Shown here: positions 101-5,837 of the stretch, piece by piece
Position numbering within the stretch: the first letter of the stretch is position 1
Layout of the letters: each line of letters starts with the position of its first letter
Source: Bacteroidales bacterium
GTDB lineage: Bacteria; Bacteroidota; Bacteroidia; Bacteroidales; UBA932
Length of the DNA stretch: 40,941 bases
Direction of reading: 5' to 3'
Assembly: GCA_017477465.1 (NCBI GenBank)
Contig: JAFUVU010000035.1
Location: 1-40,941 of the forward strand
Translations under genes and position numbers: made by a program
The notes under the pieces: model-generated
Told to the model about the DNA's origin: nothing
Databases searched by the model: none
What the model saw: the letters and a program-made list of their open reading frames with translations, nothing else

Positions 101-144
101 GGGACCAGGAGGTCGCTGGTTCAAGTCCAGTCATCCAGACAACT
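101..144 (+). repeat. tRNA 3'-half-like repeat, copy A (candidate att scar)
   Basis: This 44-bp sequence is identical to 5750-5793. It reads as the 3' part of a tRNA: an anticodon-stem 3' strand (ccagg), variable bases aggtc, a T arm (gctgg / loop / ccagt with one G-U pair) and a 3' acceptor strand (catccag) with discriminator a. No matching D arm or 5' acceptor strand lies upstream, so it is not a complete tRNA. Identity beginning in the anticodon loop and ending just after the tRNA 3' end is the usual shape of tRNA attachment cores used by tyrosine integrases. That makes an integration scar likely, but no integrase is seen in the window. The parent tRNA may be a Pro type; this is uncertain. 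Confidence 0.6.
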
Positions 145-150
145 GAAAAA

Positions 151-190
151 TGAGGCACTTACAGAAATGTAGATGCCTCAAATTTTTGTA
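151..190 (+). terminator. Rho-independent terminator after tRNA-like repeat A
   Basis: The arms tgaggca (151-157) and tgcctca (174-180) form a 7-bp hairpin followed by a T-rich run (aatttttgta). It sits 7 nt after the 44-bp repeat, as a terminator would follow a tRNA gene. Its arm sequence differs from the terminator after copy B. Confidence 0.65.
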
Positions 191-225
191 TTAGGTGTGG
201 AGCTAAAGATTTTTCATAAAACTAC

Positions 226-254
226 GGTAAATTCAAAAATTTACCTTAACTTTG
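226..254 (+). promoter_or_regulatory. abiE promoter with overlapping palindromic operator
   Basis: The Bacteroidota -7 consensus TAnnTTTG is matched exactly by TAACTTTG at 247-254, 15 nt before the abiEi start codon. Immediately upstream, ggtaaatt (226-233) and aatttacc (238-245) form a perfect 8-bp inverted repeat with a 4-nt spacer, lying in the spacer between the -33 and -7 regions. AbiEi antitoxins are known to repress their own operon by binding inverted repeats in the promoter, so this is the probable operator. The location is direct observation; the repressor contact is inference. Confidence 0.6.
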
Positions 255-269
255 TGAAAATATTAGACG

Positions 270-851
270 ATGAGTATTGAACAGCACATATCGGAGAACG
301 GCGGCAGCATCCGTGCCAAGACACTCAAAGAGCAGACCCCGAATCCCTATTACGAGCTCCGCAAGGCTATATCGGATGGAGAGGTAGTCCGCGTGAAGCG
401 GGGTGTATATATGCTTTCAGATGAACTGGCCGACACAATGATTGACATCGAGTCCATTGTCCCCGGCGGCATCCTGTGCCTTTACTCGGCCTGGGCATAC
501 TATGAAATCAGCACCCAGATTCCGACAGCTTTCTTTGTTGCGGTGGATACGCACCGACGCGTCGTGATTCCGGATTATCCGCCCGTTACGCTCTGCTACT
601 GGCAGAAGAAATACAGGGAACTCGGTGTGGTCCGCAGAGAAATATCCGGGCACAGTGTACTGATTACCGACCTGGAAAAGTCCGTCTGCGATGCGGTCAA
701 GTTCAGAAATAAAGTAGGAATCGATGTGTGTGCAGAAATCCTTCACTCATACCTTAGGCGGAAGGACAAGAGCATTTCGAAACTGATGGCTTATGCGACG
801 CAGATGCGGATTGGTGGAACCATGAAAAAGTATCTTGAAATGTGGGAATAA
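270..851 (+). CDS. abiEi: AbiEi-family type IV antitoxin / autorepressor
   Basis: The 193-residue product matches the AbiEi pattern. An N-terminal winged-helix-like region (residues about 1-55, ending VVRVKRGVYML) is followed by a C-terminal region with the typical YSAWAYYEIS and ITDLEKSVCDAV segments. In characterised systems the N-terminal domain represses the operon and the C-terminal domain neutralises the AbiEii nucleotidyltransferase without stable binding. Length fits the family (about 190-280 aa). The ATG at 270 follows a clear promoter and is the first Met. The gene is one nucleotide upstream of the toxin gene, consistent with co-transcription. It lies on the repeat-bounded island, suggesting horizontal acquisition for phage or plasmid defence. 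The assignment is by family pattern and toxin context. Confidence 0.85.
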   Translation: MSIEQHISENGGSIRAKTLKEQTPNPYYELRKAISDGEVVRVKRGVYMLSDELADTMIDIESIVPGGILCLYSAWAYYEISTQIPTAFFVAVDTHRRVVIPDYPPVTLCYWQKKYRELGVVRREISGHSVLITDLEKSVCDAVKFRNKVGIDVCAEILHSYLRRKDKSISKLMAYATQMRIGGTMKKYLEMWE

Positions 852-852
852 T

Positions 853-1725
853 ATGGCAAATGTGAAAAACTACGGCGTTTCCGTACGCGACAAACTTAAA
901 AAACTGATTGATGGCGGCACAACTTATCAACAGGTTCTTATCCGTTATATGCACGAAAGACTGCTGTACAGGCTTTCTGAAAGCAGATATCGGGATAATT
1001 TCTACCTGAAAGGCGGTGCCCTGCTGTTCGCTTATGAGCGCTTTGCGGCCAGGCCGACCATCGACATTGATTTTCTCGGGGAAAGAGTCAGCCGGGATAA
1101 AGACAATATCAAGAGGACATTTACGGAAATTCTATCTATTCCATGCGCCGAGGATGGAGTTACATTCGACACTTCCGAGGGTAGTATTACCGTCGAAGAT
1201 ATTATTCTTGAACGTGAGTATAACGGCGTAAAAGTACGTTTTACCGGTCATCTCGATACTATTGTGCAGAATCTGTCCATGGATATCGGATTCGGAGACA
1301 TCATAATTCCTCATCCCGTGGAACTCGAATATGCACCTCTGATTGAAGATATGAGCGAGTTCACGATAAATGCCTATTCCCTGGAGACCGTGGTGGCCGA
1401 AAAGTTCCAAACAATGATTGCACGTTCAGTCACGAACAGCCGCATGAAGGACTTCTACGATGTGTACACCATTCTGCAGGGAGGGAAATTGGACAAGGAA
1501 GTATTGGCGATAGCCATAAAAGATATTTTTGAAAACCGAGGTACCAGATACGAGGATAACCATCCCTTGTTTTCTGAATCATTCAAAAACAGTTCGGACA
1601 AAATGACCCAGTGGAGTGCATTCCTGAGGAAAACCAAAATCAAAAACGGGCCCTCTTTTGCTACGGTAATGGATTTAATCGGGAAAGAGTTGAAGCCCTA
1701 TTGGGACGGCTTGGAAATCAAGTAA
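853..1725 (+). CDS. abiEii: AbiEii-family nucleotidyltransferase toxin
   Basis: This 290-residue protein carries the nucleotidyltransferase signature of AbiEii/DUF1814 toxins: KGG at residues 53-55, the metal-binding DIDF (D71, D73) and a later conserved NSRMKDFYDVY segment. Members transfer nucleotides to cellular targets; the mycobacterial relatives MenT1 and MenT3 modify the 3' CCA end of tRNAs and so block translation. I chose the ATG at 853, one base after the antitoxin stop, over an in-frame TTG at 835 that overlaps abiEi. Key catalytic residues appear intact, so the toxin should be active. The tRNA array and tRNA 3'-end repeats on the same island make a tRNA target an attractive but untested idea. 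Confidence 0.85.
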   Translation: MANVKNYGVSVRDKLKKLIDGGTTYQQVLIRYMHERLLYRLSESRYRDNFYLKGGALLFAYERFAARPTIDIDFLGERVSRDKDNIKRTFTEILSIPCAEDGVTFDTSEGSITVEDIILEREYNGVKVRFTGHLDTIVQNLSMDIGFGDIIIPHPVELEYAPLIEDMSEFTINAYSLETVVAEKFQTMIARSVTNSRMKDFYDVYTILQGGKLDKEVLAIAIKDIFENRGTRYEDNHPLFSESFKNSSDKMTQWSAFLRKTKIKNGPSFATVMDLIGKELKPYWDGLEIK

Positions 1726-1730
1726 CTTGA

Positions 1731-1834
1731 GGATAGCCGGGCAGGCGGCTTTTGCCGACTGCCGGGCGGTGAGAGGTGCGGCGGTGTAGCGGAAATGGGC
1801 TTGACAGCTCTGCTGGCAAGCCGATTGGAGCGAC
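1731..1834. repeat. 104-bp two-hairpin repeat, copy 1
   Basis: This unit is repeated in the same orientation at 3304-3407 with 102 of 104 positions identical (differences at 1811 and 1824). It contains two potential hairpins. The first pairs gcag (1741-1744) and cggc (1746-1749) with gccg (1754-1757) and ctgc (1759-1762) around a TTTT loop. The second pairs ggcttg and cagc (1798-1808) with gctg and caagcc (1812-1822). It starts 5 nt after abiEii. No open frame of note is conserved. A miniature mobile element or structured RNA are both possible. Confidence 0.75.
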
Positions 1835-1840
1835 AGCCAG

Positions 1841-1871
1841 TTGCTTTTCCGCCGAAATATCAGTATCTTCG
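1841..1871 (+). promoter_or_regulatory. Candidate promoter of the nitroreductase gene
   Basis: A TTG (1841-1843) lies 20 nt before TATCTTCG (1864-1871), one mismatch from the Bacteroidota -7 box TAnnTTTG. The gene's ATG follows at 1891. The promoter begins just outside the 104-bp repeat. Confidence 0.4.
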
Positions 1872-1890
1872 TGCCAATATTGATCGAGCC

Positions 1891-2565
1891 ATGACAGAGT
1901 TTGAAGCCATCAAGGCACGGCATTCCGTGCGAAAATACACCGACAAGCCCATAGAGACCGCCAAAGTGGCGACCATCAGGATTGCCATTGAGAACATTAA
2001 TGCCGAAAGTGGTCTGAACATCCAACTGGTGCTGGATGAGCCGAAGGCCTTTTCTTCCGGCATGTGGAAGTACGGACAGTTTTCCGGCGTGAAGAATTAC
2101 TTCGTAATGGCAGGACCAAAGGGAAATGAAGCCGAAGAAAAAATCGGCTACTACGGTGAGAAACTGGTATTGCTGGCGCAGGCTTTGGGCCTTAACACCT
2201 GCTGGGTAGGCCTAACCTACAAGAAGATTCCCGGAACCTTTACTCTCAGGGACGGCGACTCCGTCCACTGTGTCATTGCGCTGGGTTACGGCACTATTCC
2301 CGGCGTGCAGCATCCCCAGAAGCCGGTGGAAAACTTCTACGAGGCCGATGGCGTTCCCCCTCAGTGGTTCATGGACGGCATGGACGCGGCTCTTCTGGCC
2401 CCTACCGCCATCAATCAGCAGAAGTTCAAATTCATCCTGCATGAGGGAAACAAGGTTGAAACAAAGACGCTCTTCTCCATGGCCGGTTACACCAATATTG
2501 ACCTGGGTATCGTGAAATACCACTTTGAGGTAGCTGCCGGAAAAGAAAACTTTACCTGGTTGTAA
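1891..2565 (+). CDS. Nitroreductase family protein (TM1586-like)
   Basis: The 224-residue product starts with the nitroreductase hallmark ARHSVRKYTDKPIE (residues about 8-21), which contacts FMN phosphate in this fold. It continues with a GLNTCWVGLTYKK region and a second-half APTAINQQKF segment, the arrangement of the TM1586-type nitroreductases in which two half-domains are fused. It probably uses FMN and NAD(P)H to reduce small molecules; the substrate cannot be read. I chose ATG 1891 because an upstream in-frame ATG at 1795 would translate the 104-bp repeat and bypass the promoter. It converges on the flavodoxin-fold oxidoreductase gene 17 nt away, so two flavoenzymes sit between the repeat copies. 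Confidence 0.8.
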   Translation: MTEFEAIKARHSVRKYTDKPIETAKVATIRIAIENINAESGLNIQLVLDEPKAFSSGMWKYGQFSGVKNYFVMAGPKGNEAEEKIGYYGEKLVLLAQALGLNTCWVGLTYKKIPGTFTLRDGDSVHCVIALGYGTIPGVQHPQKPVENFYEADGVPPQWFMDGMDAALLAPTAINQQKFKFILHEGNKVETKTLFSMAGYTNIDLGIVKYHFEVAAGKENFTWL

Positions 2566-2582
2566 AGAAACCTGCCAAATAA

Positions 2583-3161
2583 TCACCAAATTTTTGCCAG
2601 GTCGAGGCCTTCGTCTATCGTGGAATTGATTTGCAGGTTCAGTTCTTCCTCAGACATGTAATCTGTGTTGTGCACGTCCAGAACGGTCATTTCTCCCAGA
2701 TTCCATAATACTCCCAGGGCTCTCAGGTACGGCGAGCCTTGGTCCAGAAAGCTTCCTGTGGGAATATCCATTCCACGTGTGGTGATATAGAGGACCTTGG
2801 GAGCCTTGCAGAGGCCGACGCAGGTTTTTCCGTTGTCCGTAAAGGTAATATCATAGAGCGAAGTCTGCTCGAAGAAGCACTTCAGAACCGCCGGGAAACT
2901 CATGTCCCAGAACGGCGCTGCAATGAGGATGCGGTCGGCTTTGGCAATCGCCATCGCCGCCTCTTTGGCCCAGGCCGGGATTTCACCAAGCCCACGTTCC
3001 TCAAAAAGGCCGGGATTGAGTGGAACGATGTCCATCTCCGGCAGGTCGTACCTGGTGAGCTTGTACCTCTTGGACAGCGCCTCAATAATTGGTTCTGCAA
3101 TCCTGAGGGTCCGGGAATCCGACTGACGCACACAAGCGTCAATGACTACAAGCGATTTCAT
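2583..3161 (-). CDS. NAD(P)H-dependent flavodoxin-fold oxidoreductase (AzoR/NQO-like)
   Basis: The 192-residue protein has a Rossmann-like flavodoxin fold beginning MKSLVVIDACVRQSDSRT, whose S-D-S-R-T segment matches the flavin phosphate loop. A conserved APFWDMSFPAVLKCFFEQ stretch (about residues 82-99) corresponds to the FMN-binding and dimer region of azoreductases. Length fits AzoR-type FMN-dependent NAD(P)H azoreductases or quinone reductases. The native substrate is unknown; reduction of quinones or electrophiles is likely. The start codon overlaps the stop of an upstream 33-codon ORF as ATGA, so translation may be coupled. The gene converges on the nitroreductase gene inside the repeat-flanked cassette. 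Confidence 0.8.
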   Translation of the reverse strand: MKSLVVIDACVRQSDSRTLRIAEPIIEALSKRYKLTRYDLPEMDIVPLNPGLFEERGLGEIPAWAKEAAMAIAKADRILIAAPFWDMSFPAVLKCFFEQTSLYDITFTDNGKTCVGLCKAPKVLYITTRGMDIPTGSFLDQGSPYLRALGVLWNLGEMTVLDVHNTDYMSEEELNLQINSTIDEGLDLAKIW

Positions 3162-3259
3162 TTCTTGTAACTGTCTTTGGTGATGATGGGTTTGCCGTCG
3201 GCATCGGTCATGAGGCTGAGGCCTTCCTTTTCCTTGATATCAAATCTGTCTTTTGCCAT
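3158..3259 (-). CDS. 33-residue small protein coupled to the oxidoreductase
   Basis: A 34-codon frame on the minus strand encodes a hydrophilic charged peptide beginning MAKDRFDIKEKEGLSL and ending TKDSYKK. Its TGA (3158-3160) overlaps the ATG (3159-3161) of the downstream oxidoreductase gene as ATGA, a typical translational-coupling junction. A strong -7 box (TAACTTTG, 3286-3279) lies about 20 nt upstream of its start. There is no signal peptide or membrane segment, and I recognise no family. It could be a real small protein or a leader peptide controlling the next gene. Confidence 0.55.
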   Translation of the reverse strand: MAKDRFDIKEKEGLSLMTDADGKPIITKDSYKK

Positions 3260-3278
3260 AATGCGAAGTATTTGTGCC

Positions 3279-3286
3279 CAAAGTTA
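3279..3286 (-). promoter_or_regulatory. -7 box for the small ORF and oxidoreductase
   Basis: Read on the minus strand, 3286-3279 is TAACTTTG, an exact TAnnTTTG match. The small ORF starts at 3259, which leaves a leader of about 10-15 nt. A clear -33 element is not visible; that region falls at the edge of the 104-bp repeat copy 2. Confidence 0.5.
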
Positions 3287-3303
3287 CACATTTTCTGCGA
3301 GAC

Positions 3304-3407
3304 GGATAGCCGGGCAGGCGGCTTTTGCCGACTGCCGGGCGGTGAGAGGTGCGGCGGTGTAGCGGAAATGGGCTTGACAGCTCCGCTGGCAAGCCGGTTG
3401 GAGCGAC
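3304..3407. repeat. 104-bp two-hairpin repeat, copy 2
   Basis: Second copy of the repeat at 1731-1834, same orientation and 102/104 identical. Both hairpins are preserved. One difference lies in the loop of hairpin 2 and the other lies outside its stem, so the structures are unaffected. The two copies bracket the nitroreductase and oxidoreductase genes, so recombination between them could delete or duplicate that pair. Confidence 0.75.
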
Positions 3408-3463
3408 CTTAGGGAAACAAACGGGATGGTTTTTGCATCTATAAGGTCGTAACCCCAAAAGTT

Positions 3464-3751
3464 ATGAAACCGAAAAAGAAAATGAAGAAACTGCGGATTA
3501 CGGAGGCGGACTTTTTGCTCGCCCAACGCAGGGCGGCAAGGCTCGAAGAGATTGCCGAGCATGGACGGCCGGTTTCATTCAGAAAGGCTGTGCACAAATC
3601 TAAGAAGGTCTATGACCGCAAACACGTAAAGAAGGCAGGCATCAATTCCGATGACCTGCCTTCTGTTGCAAATGACATATGCGAGCTCTGGCAGTGCCAA
3701 AACTCTACGACCGTATTGCAAATTGTTTCGTCATCAAGGCCTTCGTCGTAG
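3464..3751 (+). CDS. Small basic hypothetical protein, probably altered at its C-terminus
   Basis: The 95-residue frame opens with a lysine-rich segment and MKKLRITEADFLLAQRRAA, followed by a PVSFRKAVHKSKKVYDRK motif and INSDDLPS near residue 65. This resembles a family of short basic Bacteroidales proteins of unknown function that I recall ending near the DDLPS position. After that point (about base 3664) the frame continues for some 29 codons, overlapping the opposite-strand ORF at 3610-3792, and looks unlike the rest. A 10-bp inverted repeat (3630-3639 with 3655-3664) spans exactly the AGINSDDLPS codons, as if the gene's terminator once began there and its T-run was lost. Function is unknown. 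Confidence 0.5.
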   Translation: MKPKKKMKKLRITEADFLLAQRRAARLEEIAEHGRPVSFRKAVHKSKKVYDRKHVKKAGINSDDLPSVANDICELWQCQNSTTVLQIVSSSRPSS

Positions 3752-3792
3752 AGGGCACCGACAAGGTCAATGATATGCTGCGACAGCTCCAT
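3610..3792 (-). CDS. Small hypothetical protein overlapping the convergent ORF
   Basis: The 60-residue frame starts MELSQHIIDLVGALYDEGLD and continues with an acidic, helix-prone segment up to VEFWHCQ. Its last 25 or so residues are antisense to the convergent gene at 3464-3751 and lack that character, so the real 3' end may be lost or the ORF may be only partly genuine. I use the ATG at 3792 rather than an upstream alternative start. I do not recognise a family. Acidic small proteins of this size are sometimes antitoxins, but nothing here proves that. Confidence 0.35.
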   Translation of the reverse strand: MELSQHIIDLVGALYDEGLDDETICNTVVEFWHCQSSHMSFATEGRSSELMPAFFTCLRS

Positions 3793-3825
3793 GGCACAAA
3801 AGTAATAAGATAGAGTGATCCGTTC

Positions 3826-3847
3826 AAATCTCTGCAAGTCTTGCAGA
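3826..3847. repeat. 22-bp palindrome-containing repeat, left copy
   Basis: aaatc followed by the 17-bp palindrome tctgcaag-t-cttgcaga (3831-3847). The same 22 bases, with only the central base changed, recur at 5124-5145 in the same orientation. The two copies bracket the hypothetical gene at 3850-4407 and the tRNA array. The left copy lies directly after the stop of that gene but has no T-run, so it is not a classic terminator. Confidence 0.6.
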
Positions 3848-3849
3848 CT

Positions 3850-4407
3850 TTATGCAGGCATGGAGACTAGATTTCTGGGCACAGCAATCCTGTATACATT
3901 ATCTCTACCCCTGATGATAGCATATTGCTCGGCCGCAATCTTCCCTACCTTCTCCACCAGTTTCCGCTTGATTCTGGAAATATTGGTTTGCAATGTCGCT
4001 CTGGAGTCATCGCAAAGCGCGTCCACTGCGGCCTCAATCTGGTCTGGGTTAACGTAGATAGTCTGTGCCTTATATATGTCGCAGAGTTCGTCATAGTACA
4101 TCCAGATATCGTCTGGTGAAATCCCGTCGGTATATTTCAAGAGGAGGGTGTAAAGGGTCCGCTCCATCGGATTCAGGTAGATTTTCACATCTCCGTAATC
4201 CGGTAGAGACAGGATTCCTTTGTTGTCCAAGAGAATTTTTCCAGGACCGTCCCTTTTTACAAGGAAATCTATAGCATCGTCGCTGAGTCCTCGCGCCCGA
4301 AGGTCTTTTAAAAGGTCTTTGACCGCGAGGACAAGGGCTTTGGTATCGTCATCAAGCACTATCTTGTCCATGATATGGGTGTGCCATGCCGGCACGATTT
4401 TGCGCAT
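3850..4407 (-). CDS. Hypothetical protein with possible C-terminal winged helix
   Basis: The 185-residue product is soluble and mixed-charge, with no signal peptide. Its middle (MERTLYTLLLKYTDGISPDD) and C-terminal part (NISRIKRKLVEKVGKIAAEQ, then RDNVYRI) resemble the layout of a response-regulator type winged-helix effector domain, where a helix rich in Arg/Lys precedes a tyrosine-containing beta hairpin. No receiver motif is seen. An alternative start at 4371 (MDKIVLDDD) would give 174 residues and looks at least as natural. It precedes nothing on its strand except the small ORF at 3792. DNA binding is a guess from pattern only. Bases 4408-4629 upstream hold no gene that I can see. Confidence 0.6.
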   Translation of the reverse strand: MRKIVPAWHTHIMDKIVLDDDTKALVLAVKDLLKDLRARGLSDDAIDFLVKRDGPGKILLDNKGILSLPDYGDVKIYLNPMERTLYTLLLKYTDGISPDDIWMYYDELCDIYKAQTIYVNPDQIEAAVDALCDDSRATLQTNISRIKRKLVEKVGKIAAEQYAIIRGRDNVYRIAVPRNLVSMPA

Positions 4408-4629
4408 TGCGCGCTGTTAAGATGATGGATTTGGTCCTGAGAACGGCAGGACTGCCGGTGCGAATTAGCTGCGCTCGTGATGCGTTGTAAATCGCTGCTC
4501 GTGACGATTTTCACATGCGGATACGGCACAGCCGGCGAAGCCTGTGAAGGTACGCCAACATGTTGTGTAGATTGTCGTCTGTGCCATATCCATAATGGTT
4601 TTGCGTTGCAAATTTAGCATTTTTTTTCG

Positions 4630-4702
4630 AGCCTCCAACAGGAATCGAACCTGTAACCCTCTGCTTACAAGGCAGATGCTCTACCGATTGAGCTAAAGAG
4701 GC
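4630..4702 (-). tRNA. tRNA-Thr (anticodon TGT)
   Basis: The minus strand folds as a cloverleaf: acceptor gcctctt / tggaggc with discriminator T, D stem gctc/gagc, anticodon stem tctgc/gcaga with loop cttgtaa (anticodon TGT), and T stem acagg/cctgt. Acceptor position 7-66 is a T-T mismatch, slightly unusual. CCA is not encoded. It is the last gene of the array. Confidence 0.9.
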
Positions 4703-4707
4703 GTTTG

Positions 4708-4779
4708 AGCCCGGAGGGAGATTCGAACTCCCGCGTGTCGGTTTTGCAGACCGATATGTTACCACTTCACCATCCGAGC
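4708..4779 (-). tRNA. tRNA-Cys (anticodon GCA)
   Basis: Acceptor gctcgga pairs with tccgggc (one G-T pair) and the discriminator is T, as expected for cysteine. The anticodon stem tcggt/accga encloses loop ctgcaaa with anticodon GCA. It lies 5 nt from tRNA-Thr. Confidence 0.9.
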
Positions 4780-4784
4780 GTTTG

Positions 4785-4855
4785 CAGAAGCAGAAAGAGT
4801 CGAACTCTCATCTGCGGTTTTGGAGACCGCCATGCTGCCATTGCACCATGCTTCC
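4785..4855 (-). tRNA. tRNA-Trp (anticodon CCA)
   Basis: Acceptor ggaagca pairs with tgcttct, and the discriminator G is as expected for tryptophan. The anticodon stem gcggt/accgc encloses loop ctccaaa (anticodon CCA). The first acceptor pair is a G-T wobble, whereas bacterial tRNA-Trp normally has A-T. In many Bacteroidota the housekeeping tRNA-Trp lies beside tuf and secE, so this copy may be additional; that needs the rest of the genome. Confidence 0.88.
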
Positions 4856-4862
4856 ATATTCG

Positions 4863-4909
4863 GGCGGGCAAAGGGCTTCGAACCCTTGACCTCCGGAGCT
4901 ACATTCCGG
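4863..4909 (-). pseudogene. Degenerate tRNA remnant in the array
   Basis: Only 66 nt separate tRNA-Glu(TTC) from tRNA-Trp, and they hold the 3' two-thirds of a tRNA. There is an anticodon-arm-like hairpin (ccgga / loop atgtagc / tccgg, GTA in the anticodon position), variable bases aggtc, a T stem aaggg/ccctt and a 3' acceptor-like strand tgcccgc. The 5' acceptor strand and D arm are absent. The T loop (ttcgaag) has G at position 60, where a pyrimidine is usual. A bacterial tRNA-Tyr would have a long variable arm, so the identity is unclear and decay is likely. Confidence 0.55.
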
Positions 4910-4921
4910 GCTCCATTTTTG

Positions 4922-4996
4922 TCGCGCCGACGGGGTTCGAACCCGTAAGTCTTCACCGTGAAAGGGTGACGTCCTGACCTGTTAGACGACAGCGCG
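4922..4996 (-). tRNA. tRNA-Glu (anticodon TTC)
   Basis: Acceptor cgcgctg/cggcgcg with discriminator A, D stem gtct/ggac, anticodon stem tcacc/ggtga with loop ctttcac (anticodon TTC), T stem acggg/cccgt. All stems pair well. Confidence 0.92.
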
Positions 4997-5001
4997 AATT
5001 G

Positions 5002-5076
5002 TACTCCTGAGCAGAATCGAACTGCTATCTTCACCTTGAGAGGGTGACCACCTAAACCAATTAGTAAGACAGGAGC
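5002..5076 (-). tRNA. tRNA-Glu-like (anticodon CTC)
   Basis: Acceptor gctcctg pairs with caggagt (first pair G-T), discriminator A. The anticodon stem tcacc/ggtga encloses loop ctctcaa with anticodon CTC, and the T stem is agcag/ctgct. The D stem pairs poorly in the standard register and requires a shifted ctta/tagg pairing. Charging with glutamate is inferred from the anticodon only. First gene after the array promoter. Confidence 0.8.
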
Positions 5077-5094
5077 ATTTCCTCAATTGCATTG

Positions 5095-5102
5095 CAAAGG
5101 TA
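5095..5102 (-). promoter_or_regulatory. -7 box of the tRNA array promoter
   Basis: On the minus strand 5102-5095 reads TACCTTTG, an exact TAnnTTTG match, 18 nt upstream of the first tRNA 5' end. This suggests a single transcript for all six tRNA units. No convincing -33 element was found. Confidence 0.5.
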
Positions 5103-5123
5103 AGCAGGCTATTTCATACTAAG

Positions 5124-5145
5124 AAATCTCTGCAAGACTTGCAGA
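5124..5145. repeat. 22-bp palindrome-containing repeat, right copy
   Basis: aaatc plus tctgcaag-a-cttgcaga (palindrome at 5129-5145), matching 3826-3847 except for the central base. A further half-site-like cttgcag follows at 5149-5155. It sits just upstream of the tRNA promoter on the minus strand, so it could be an operator as well as a cassette boundary. Confidence 0.6.
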
Positions 5146-5266
5146 AATCTTGCAGCGTAGTTCGTCAAAACTTAGGAATCGGCGCTGGAAAAATTCCGAT
5201 AAAGCGCTGATAGACAGACGCGTTCTCAAATCGAAACATCTGTCTACAATAAGAATACATCATTTT

Positions 5267-5444
5267 TATCTTTGACAATAAACCTTTAGATGCTTGGATT
5301 CTACCCGTTTGTTTATTATCTTTATCATGTTTAATATTTTTAAACAAAAGTTTGCGATGAACATAAGAGACGAAGAAATAGTCCGCACGGCGTTATTCCA
5401 GTTGCTGCCCACTGGCAGGCCTCACCGGTGGACCTGCCTTTTTT
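5267..5444 (+). ncRNA. Candidate short transcript (promoter to terminator), function unknown
   Basis: In the gene-free stretch 5146-5443, TATCTTTG at 5267-5274 is an exact -7 box and the only clear downstream signal on that strand is the terminator ending at 5444. This defines a transcript of about 160 nt. It includes a small hairpin (tgtttaa/ttaaaca near 5328-5346) and a 38-codon frame beginning MNIRDEEIVRTALFQLLP at 5357, whose 3' part runs through the terminator. It could be a small RNA, or the stump of a truncated gene. No -33 element is visible, and I recognise no RNA family. Confidence 0.25.
5414..5444 (+). terminator. Rho-independent terminator
   Basis: ggcagg (5414-5419) pairs with cctgcc (5433-5438), with an inner caccggtg palindrome, followed directly by six T residues (5439-5444). 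The T-run touches the stop codon of the minus-strand gene fragment, but the orientation terminates plus-strand transcription. Confidence 0.75.
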
Positions 5445-5749
5445 CATCTTACTCTATACAGGGATGGCAGTAGTTCCTTGTTGATTTCCCAATATCCATC
5501 TTTGCGACCGCCTATTCGGGTGAGAACGCCCAACTCTTTCAGAACCGCCAAATCTCTTTCAATCGTTCGCGCAGCAACGATGCCTTTCCCCGGCATTTCC
5601 GAAATCTTATCCGACATTTTTTGTGCGGAAATGTAAGAATCCTTATCTATCAAATCAATAATAACCTGCTGTCTTTCAGTTAGTTCTTTTCCGACATCTT
5701 TTCCGACATCATCGCACAAACTATGGCTCGGTAACGATATCACGGCCGG
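5444..5749 (-). pseudogene. 3' fragment of a winged-helix ATP-binding-type regulator
   Basis: The frame encodes about 100 residues including VGKDVGKELTERQQ, RTIERDLAVLKELGVLTRIG and GRKDGYWEI, the characteristic C-terminal winged-helix tail of large AlbA_2/AAA_4-type putative transcriptional regulators that normally exceed 400 residues. The N-terminal AlbA_2 domain is missing. Upstream the frame runs into the tRNA-like repeat at 5750, and the only start available is a TTG inside the repeat's T arm, which would add a non-native MNQRPPGPP leader. The gene was therefore cut at this junction by a recombination or deletion event at the repeat. It is unlikely to be functional. Confidence 0.75.
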
Positions 5750-5793
5750 GGGACCAGGAGGTCGCTGGTTCAAGTCCAGTCATCCAGACAACT
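5750..5793 (+). repeat. tRNA 3'-half-like repeat, copy B (candidate att scar)
   Basis: Identical over 44 bp to 101-144. The base before the shared core differs (g here, a in copy A), so identity begins inside the anticodon loop. Copy B interrupts the regulator fragment. The pair bounds 5.6 kb of accessory genes in direct orientation, like attL and attR or successive integration scars. Confidence 0.6.
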
Positions 5794-5797
5794 CAAA

Positions 5798-5837
5798 ATC
5801 AAGCACTTTCGAAAAACCGTAAGTGCTTGATTTTTTT
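5798..5837 (+). terminator. Rho-independent terminator after tRNA-like repeat B
   Basis: An 11-bp perfect stem, atcaagcactt (5798-5808) with aagtgcttgat (5821-5831), is followed by a run of T. It occupies the same position relative to the repeat as the terminator after copy A, but has a different stem sequence. Confidence 0.85.

Follow-up and report, generated by a model that had tools for sequence, protein, structure and literature searches.

The stretch of DNA analysed here (hereafter ‘the window’) is 40,941 nucleotides (nt) long and comes from a Bacteroidales bacterium of the UBA932 lineage (assembly GCA_017477465.1, contig JAFUVU010000035.1). Near its left end, an accessory island contains two copies of a 104-nt direct repeat. 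We find that this repeat is a shortened version of a conserved folded element, about 200 nt long, which, in related genomes, lies at the joints between exchangeable cargo cassettes, mainly on conjugative or mobilisable elements. This strongly folded repeat is previously undescribed; no description of a repeat-organised cargo bay was found in the portions of the open-access full-text literature available to us.

An initial annotation of the same sequence had proposed an island of repeat-bounded cassettes assembled by recombination at short repeats. The three pairs of direct repeats on which it relied are present: an outer pair of 49 nt (the first 44 identical), the 104-nt pair, and a 32-nt pair around a 17-nt palindrome. 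The cassette interpretation stands for the 104-nt pair, where relatives reorder the same cargo and one comparison gives a clean presence/absence case. The outer pair is instead an attachment-site duplicate, and the interpretation is not borne out for the palindrome. Describing the 104-nt element as a short repeat also undersold it, given the larger folded element from which it is reduced.

The window repeat is a shortened form of a conserved folded element

The two window copies are 98% identical, have no further counterpart in their own genome as assembled, and both match the full-length model:

1731..1834, + strand: reduced structured repeat, copy 1 (5' hairpin SL1 and 3' hairpin SL4, no middle domain); 108.9 bits
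3304..3407, + strand: reduced structured repeat, copy 2; 105.9 bits

Full-length copies span 195–256 nt and are predicted to fold into a 5' hairpin (SL1), a multibranch middle domain (SL2 and SL3) and a 3' hairpin (SL4). The middle domain is absent from both window copies, at the same junction, and from copies in the relatives G004 and G295b. In the genomes G137 and G198, about 131 bases lie between the repeat's two halves.

Across 35 aligned matches, 34 of them distinct, 95.9% of cells are paired, and both sides have changed in 38 of 51 pairs. The covariation score is 0.371, compared to 0.131 for shuffled alignments (none of 500 shuffles reached it) and at most 0.066 for slid versions; the score benefits from an alignment fitted to the structure, and the controls are nevertheless far lower. 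Furthermore, in all 21 copies of 190–240 nt the given strand has the better fold of the two, with RNA and with DNA energies. Because folding is maintained, the repeat is more than a passive recombination substrate. Five repeat-bearing loci gave no match in Rfam at E-values up to 1, and the window gave only tRNAs at gathering scores.

A DNA search matched the element in 15 of 300 genus genomes and a covariance model in 25 of the 300, the window's own genome being counted in both; the model matched none of 294 other genomes of the order (183 genera in all, with at least one more genome of the same genus). The number of copies given for a genome is a lower bound, as the 300-genome search scored seven candidates per genome. 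An International Union of Pure and Applied Chemistry (IUPAC) pattern for SL3, run against 84,980 species genomes, returned 15 stretches on 14 contigs, all from metagenome-assembled Bacteroidales or Bacteroidia, and for seven of the 15 the title refers to the rumen, omasum or reticulum of goat, sheep or water buffalo. The repeat was not found in plasmid and phage collections by blastn with one copy, nor in viral contigs by pattern. Throughout, E-values from the covariance model are rough, the compared genomes are draft assemblies, and related cassettes are not independent of one another.

Flanks were tabulated for 35 repeats at 22 loci, comprising 31 of the 41 full-span model hits and four further copies, with four short hits excluded. 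One of the four further copies was a model hit and three were first found by blastn, two of these being weak in the model search. The full-span hits omitted from the table are G019:C22, G136, G221, G004, G172, G005:C167, G262, G256, G231 and G180.

A remnant of SL1, corresponding to the first 30 nt or so of the repeat, precedes the same pyridoxamine-oxidase-like gene at two loci (L117, 8514–8793; L118, 2306–2334). The genes upstream of the remnants differ, being an AbiEii remnant in G165 and another open reading frame (ORF) in G164.

Cargo changes partners across the repeat

Cargo at the repeats includes a TM1586-type nitroreductase (nitroR), AbiE, a tRNA_SAD protein, DUF5131, flavodoxin and a tRNA array. 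Before nitroR, the partner across the repeat is AbiE in the window's own genome (G000), a 99-amino-acid ORF with a rhomboid gene in G198, DUF4234 in G023, a 73-amino-acid ORF in G303 and gene c3 in G072. Similarly, the small gene orf3464 is preceded by flavodoxin in the window, by DUF4234 in G072 and by nitroR in G023, and the tRNA_SAD (AlaX-like) gene comes after DUF5131 in G072 and after the first repeat in G023. An AbiE pair of another subfamily sits directly before a repeat in G017 (L174, 31–1876), a further AbiE pair lies near a repeat in G062 (L128, 2172–5355), and a relative of the window tRNA array in G004 ends at a repeat via the same palindrome.

The most informative comparison involves three genomes. 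In G303 and UBA1197, a 350-bp unit together with a repeat lies exactly between the first repeat and nitroR; both are absent from G072, and the flanks are 95–97% identical. The first repeat is identical between G072 and G303 at 223 of 223 positions. Because G072 retains the distinguishing bases of the first repeat, the crossover can be placed within its last 30 nt. This is the strongest single joining event, and it is compatible alike with site-specific and with homologous exchange. The outcome that would have refuted the initial annotation, in which relatives show no size variation and carry the repeats singly or not at all, did not occur. That cassettes are joined at the folded repeat is well supported.

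The repeats hold a fixed place and orientation on mobile elements

At 13 of the 22 loci, all of them in relatives, the relaxase, coupling or accessory proteins of a conjugative or mobilisable host (MobC_2, MobA relaxase or a TraG/TraD-type coupling protein) are in view near the array. Surrounding genes encode TraO, a CHC2/Toprim primase and a Rep_3-type protein, and a PF00589 integrase follows the primase in G023 and G019. In G072 and G247, ORFs read as integrase-like, without a family scan, adjoin tRNA-Ala and tRNA-Asp; the PF00589 search, which covered the G072 contig and not G247, found none there.

The repeats lie between gene c3 and the Rep_3 gene at all five loci that show both. Wherever mob genes are in view (13 of 13 loci), the repeats are oriented opposite to them, and orientation is uniform within each of the nine multi-repeat loci (22 repeats). 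A cargo-free form also exists: contig C7 of G137 carries c3, one repeat and the Rep_3-type gene, and the sole ORF between them runs antisense over the repeat. In five loci (G072, G303, G023, G247 and G017) the first repeat from the c3 side is of a distinct type, with SL1 starting GCCTTCC, and internal copies are never of this type.

By eye, iteron-like repeats (GTAGTnnnnnTGTAGGA) are visible at about 1590–1870 of L122, after the single repeat of the cargo-free element and beside its Rep_3-type gene.

Predicted promoters point away from the repeats

We used the −7 box TAnnTTTG, which we take to be the Bacteroidales consensus. None of the 35 repeats has such a box pointing inward within 100 nt (other promoter types were not sought), and 18 of the 35 have one pointing outward within 60 nt. 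Spacing is restricted on both sides. Left-pointing boxes within 60 nt accompany nine repeats, six of them at 17 nt; right-pointing boxes accompany ten, seven at 28–29 nt and three at 9 nt. The second window repeat provides an example:

3279..3286, − strand: outward-facing −7 box TAACTTTG, 17 nt from the end of the repeat

At the same 17-nt spacing, such a box also precedes other cargo in G198, G062 (two places) and G005, and in G098 it precedes the same gene. Boxes with an AAAAT spacer, an extended promoter, are enriched near repeats (12 of 22 −7 boxes, compared to 20 of 218 far from repeats; Fisher p 1e-6), and this p-value is optimistic because related cassettes are counted repeatedly. Cargo thus seems either to carry in or to acquire, at a fixed distance, an outward promoter.

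A joining site or a structured RNA

We propose that the folded repeat is a DNA-level joining site for cargo cassettes, an interpretation that, taken as a whole, we hold with about even confidence. The repeat would fold on one strand, and the most plausible occasion for this is conjugative transfer, when the element is single-stranded. Recombination close to the 3' end of the repeat would insert, delete and reorder gene-plus-repeat units, and the promoters pointing away from the repeat would drive expression of the cargo. The window island, judged from its sequence, is probably a remnant of such a repeat-joined cargo array, which may have stayed at tRNA-Pro after the rest of the mobile element was lost or may have integrated as a smaller derivative. 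We favour a DNA-level site because no inward promoter was found, because the strand is fixed relative to the transfer genes, and because the joint in G303, UBA1197 and G072 is clean. More tentatively, and short of an even chance, the repeat could represent a third kind of system by which bacteria capture cassettes, separate from integrons and from Xer modules, in which a folded single-strand site of about 200 nt on gut Bacteroidales conjugative elements would be recombined near its 3' end by a recombinase during transfer, building ordered arrays equipped with promoters.

A number of observations weigh against a dedicated joining site. Repeat pairs of the same genome share identical stretches of 99 nt (G023 and G062), 80 nt (window) and 76 nt (G164), a sign of homologous exchange. 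The last 30 nt of the repeat, where the crossover was placed, also form its longest identical stretch, so that homologous recombination fits equally well, and just one presence/absence case has flanks close enough for a crossover to be placed. Whether the repeat body moves with the upstream or with the downstream gene is clear in one case, the remaining pairs being too diverged. Among copies that share a flank, counted only where homology reaches to 60 nt or less from the repeat, six of eight upstream pairs and 16 of 36 downstream pairs have a gap of 0–15 nt; exactness of the joint is thus not demonstrable everywhere. Many diverged pairs lose flank homology some distance off. Joints without a repeat also occur: in G247, nitroR adjoins orf3464 with no repeat between, and in G062, nitroR and flavodoxin directly follow tRNA-Pro. 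The distinct first repeat is confined to the five loci named above; the first position is taken by the common type in G078, G164, G062, G137, G198 and G075. A dedicated recombinase was not seen in the cargo bays, where part of the ORFs were scanned; the bay of G164 holds an IS1595-type transposase (L167, 10394–11326) between its last repeat and the Rep_3-type gene. Finally, paired sites hold 78 G-U against 12 A-C combinations, which also suits an RNA. This excess leaves RNA and DNA undecided, because G-T is the milder mismatch in DNA as well.

Several of these observations would be accommodated if the repeat were a functional structured RNA, or a transcript-end or insulator structure, kept for regulation, with cassettes shuffling passively by homologous recombination, an explanation that we regard as possible while somewhat doubting it. 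It is favoured by the 76–99-nt identical stretches, the preference for G-U and the lack of a recognised recombinase among the proteins scanned; the strong covariation and the outward promoters adjoining the repeat also suit it. However, no −7 box leads into any of the 35 repeats within the distance and promoter type searched, and at some joints, for instance in G198, the upstream gene also reads away, so that no obvious transcript covers the repeat. The DNA fold, moreover, has the identical strand preference.

It is improbable that the repeat is an independent mobile RNA or DNA element inserted repeatedly into the cargo region in the manner of HEARO elements and IS605 ends. The closest pairs do show sharp borders, one element has a repeat without cargo, and the pair nitroR–orf3464 is found with an intervening repeat in G023 and with none in G247, but the repeat has no Rfam match, its orientation and place are fixed relative to the backbone, partners change across it, and the window's own genome has just two copies. 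A divergent integron or Xer/dif-module system is the least probable explanation, and a very unlikely one: direct-repeat joints, exchangeable cargo, uniform orientation and a Rep_3-type gene on the element would agree with it, but integron integrase, attC-type boxes and Xer-like sites were all sought without success (see below) and the fold has several hairpins instead of one imperfect hairpin.

Comparison with known systems

The boxes of attC sites read GTTRRRY and RYYYAAC, and neither occurs near an end of any of the 35 repeats. The integron integrase model (IntI, TIGR02249) was above its cut-off in none of 23 genomes, made up of 21 of the 25 model-positive genomes plus G165 and G098; hits below the cut-off occurred in all 23 and in all 14 controls, which included no true integron. 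Membership of the integrons was thus rejected on the integrase as well as on the attC site, and, of the integron properties tested, joining of cassettes in direct repeat at the site was found. Integrons comprise IntI, attI and attC cassette arrays (PMC8946536, as far as its available text goes). Like them, the elements described here have structured direct-repeat joints with a variable middle, uniform orientation, a one-strand folding preference, a single cargo-free repeat in one element and a distinct first repeat in five loci. Unlike them, they have no IntI above cut-off, no attC boxes near the ends, a multi-hairpin repeat of about 200 nt, cargo reading in both directions, promoters beside the repeat, carriage on conjugative or mobilisable elements, and a common-type first repeat in six other loci.

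Xer/dif modules were rejected as no Xer-like site was found at the joints. Across the 35 repeats with 60-nt flanks, the best pdif-like site had 6 mismatches of 19, compared to a control minimum of 4, with both medians at 8. A dif consensus taken from general background gave four forward hits with three mismatches each in two of ten genomes, and six control hits; the dif site of the genus was not identifiable. In the available text of one study, Rep_3 plasmids of Acinetobacter carry Xer-dependent dif modules, with XerC and XerD arms, a 6-bp spacer and alternating pdif orientation (PMC13141974). To the extent of that text, the two systems share a Rep_3 backbone and accessory modules shuffled at joints by enzymes encoded elsewhere, but the joints described here are about 200 nt long, keep one orientation per locus and have no Xer-like site.

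Tycheposons are tRNA-anchored genomic islands. Such islands have been catalogued by Islander (PMC4383910, in the part of the text available). The window island resembles them in being bounded by 3' tRNA fragments, in the presence of an intact tRNA gene, and in having relatives with small islands at that tRNA. That scheme, to our knowledge, includes no internal cassette joints at a folded repeat. The repeat-bearing elements of relatives also resemble Bacteroidales integrative conjugative and mobilisable elements in MobC_2, MobA relaxase, TraG/TraD-type coupling protein, TraO and CHC2/Toprim primase and, in G023 and G019, in the PF00589 integrase near the primase; they differ in that a structured repeat organises the cargo bay.

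How gut Bacteroidales elements gather and reorder cargo without integrons is, as far as we know, poorly explained. A covarying folded repeat at cassette joints provides a concrete and testable site, belonging either to a new cassette-recombination system or to a new family of structured RNAs by which the cargo of mobile elements is organised. In addition, the repeat can be used as a sequence handle for cargo genes, such as toxin-antitoxin pairs, stress enzymes and tRNA arrays, in a genus known here from draft assemblies.

The window island and its boundaries

The window spans the whole of contig C66 and thus begins at a contig end; the draft genome comprises 2,419,531 bases in 73 contigs with a completeness of 82.5%. 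The island is bounded by the outer direct repeat of 49 nt (98% identity, first 44 nt identical):

101..149, + strand: 3' part of tRNA-Pro(AGG), left boundary (attachment-site duplicate)
5750..5798, + strand: 3' part of tRNA-Pro(AGG), right boundary (attachment-site duplicate)

One additional copy in the same genome forms the 3' portion of an intact tRNA-Pro(AGG) gene (G000:C27:15354-15429), which stops 62 bases short of the contig end; the stretch linking C27 to C66 is unassembled. With 3' tRNA duplicates at both boundaries and an intact tRNA gene, this is a classical integrase-type tRNA attachment-site duplication, distinct in kind from the 104-nt repeat, and positions 101–5798 occupy a tRNA-Pro(AGG) integration hotspot of the genus. 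A query of tRNA-Pro with its terminator matched 235 of 250 genus genomes. Among the matches listed, additional copies without the 5' part occur in G137, G078, G095, G023, G171 and G150; those in G248, G164 and G198 are cut by a contig end and may be assembly edges. Small islands running from tRNA-Pro to a half copy are present in G061 (2.4 kb) and G095 (1.1 kb), no second copy was found within the 16 kb fetched for G081, and in G078 (L125) a 485-amino-acid tyrosine integrase ORF adjoins the tRNA-Pro half. The initial annotation saw no integrase in the window, which agrees with a PF00589 search of C66: no hit was obtained, and the island thus holds no cognate integrase of this family, transposases having been scanned in part of the window. 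No relaxase, coupling or mobilisation cluster was found in the first 7 kb, the part scanned for them.

Between the outer repeats lie the following genes:

270..851, + strand: AbiEi antitoxin (type IV toxin-antitoxin/abortive infection); Pfam AbiEi_4 23.4 bits (cut-off 25), PADLOC AbiEi 8.1e-54
853..1725, + strand: AbiEii nucleotidyltransferase toxin; Pfam AbiEii 6.7e-45; stop codon 5 nt short of the repeat
1891..2565, + strand: TM1586-type nitroreductase (nitroR), the commonest repeat neighbour (cluster c1, 11 of 23 clustered loci)
2583..3161, − strand: Flavodoxin_2/flavin mononucleotide (FMN)-reductase-like oxidoreductase (Pfam); relatives in L120 and L127
3464..3751, + strand: orf3464, small ORF, function unassigned; cluster c11 with L136, L167, L168 and L177, recurrent near repeats
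3850..4407, − strand: 185-amino-acid ORF; no Pfam family, weak CARF5 profile match (8.7e-4)
4629..5076, − strand: five-tRNA array, Thr-TGT, Cys, Trp, Glu-TTC and Glu-CTC (the last weak)
5444..5773, − strand: winged-helix ORF overlapping the right attachment repeat; HTH_DeoR 2.7e-4, right at the cut-off

The product of orf3464 belongs to no Pfam family, and tblastn finds matches to it in L130 and L133. In the array, the Thr-TGT, Cys, Glu-TTC and Glu-CTC genes differ in sequence from the other copies in the genome, tRNA-Trp is the sole one found in the draft, and the last Glu gene scores a weak 32.4 bits. An apparent tRNA-like remnant lies at about 4861–4915. A search for a phage origin of the array gave only short matches, the best of them covering 9% of the query.

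The array is flanked by the third repeat pair (32 nt; 3826–3857 and 5124–5155, 84% identity), which is centred on the 17-nt palindrome TCTGCAAGNCTTGCAGA:

3831..3847, unstranded: 17-nt palindrome, copy 1
5129..5145, unstranded: 17-nt palindrome, copy 2

With up to one mismatch, the palindrome occurs in its own genome at just these two sites, and the reversed control pattern gave no match. In G004 it sits between the related array and the repeat. No comparison indicates recombination at the palindrome, and a boundary role is not demonstrated.

To the right of 5798, a DUF1295 protein is followed by a putative histidine-utilisation (hut) operon, its genes named without a family scan. DUF1295 was rejected as a marker of the same locus: it matches in 20 of 61 genomes and, of the 12 neighbourhoods fetched, only that of G006 has hut genes too. 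Across the loci compared (L006, L124, L126, L131, L132 and L127), the 5' end of tRNA-Pro faces the hut operon in G078, G204, G061 and G062, and the 3' end faces it in G081 and, for the tRNA halves, in G000. Species thus differ in how tRNA-Pro is oriented among its neighbours, as if the segment had been inverted.

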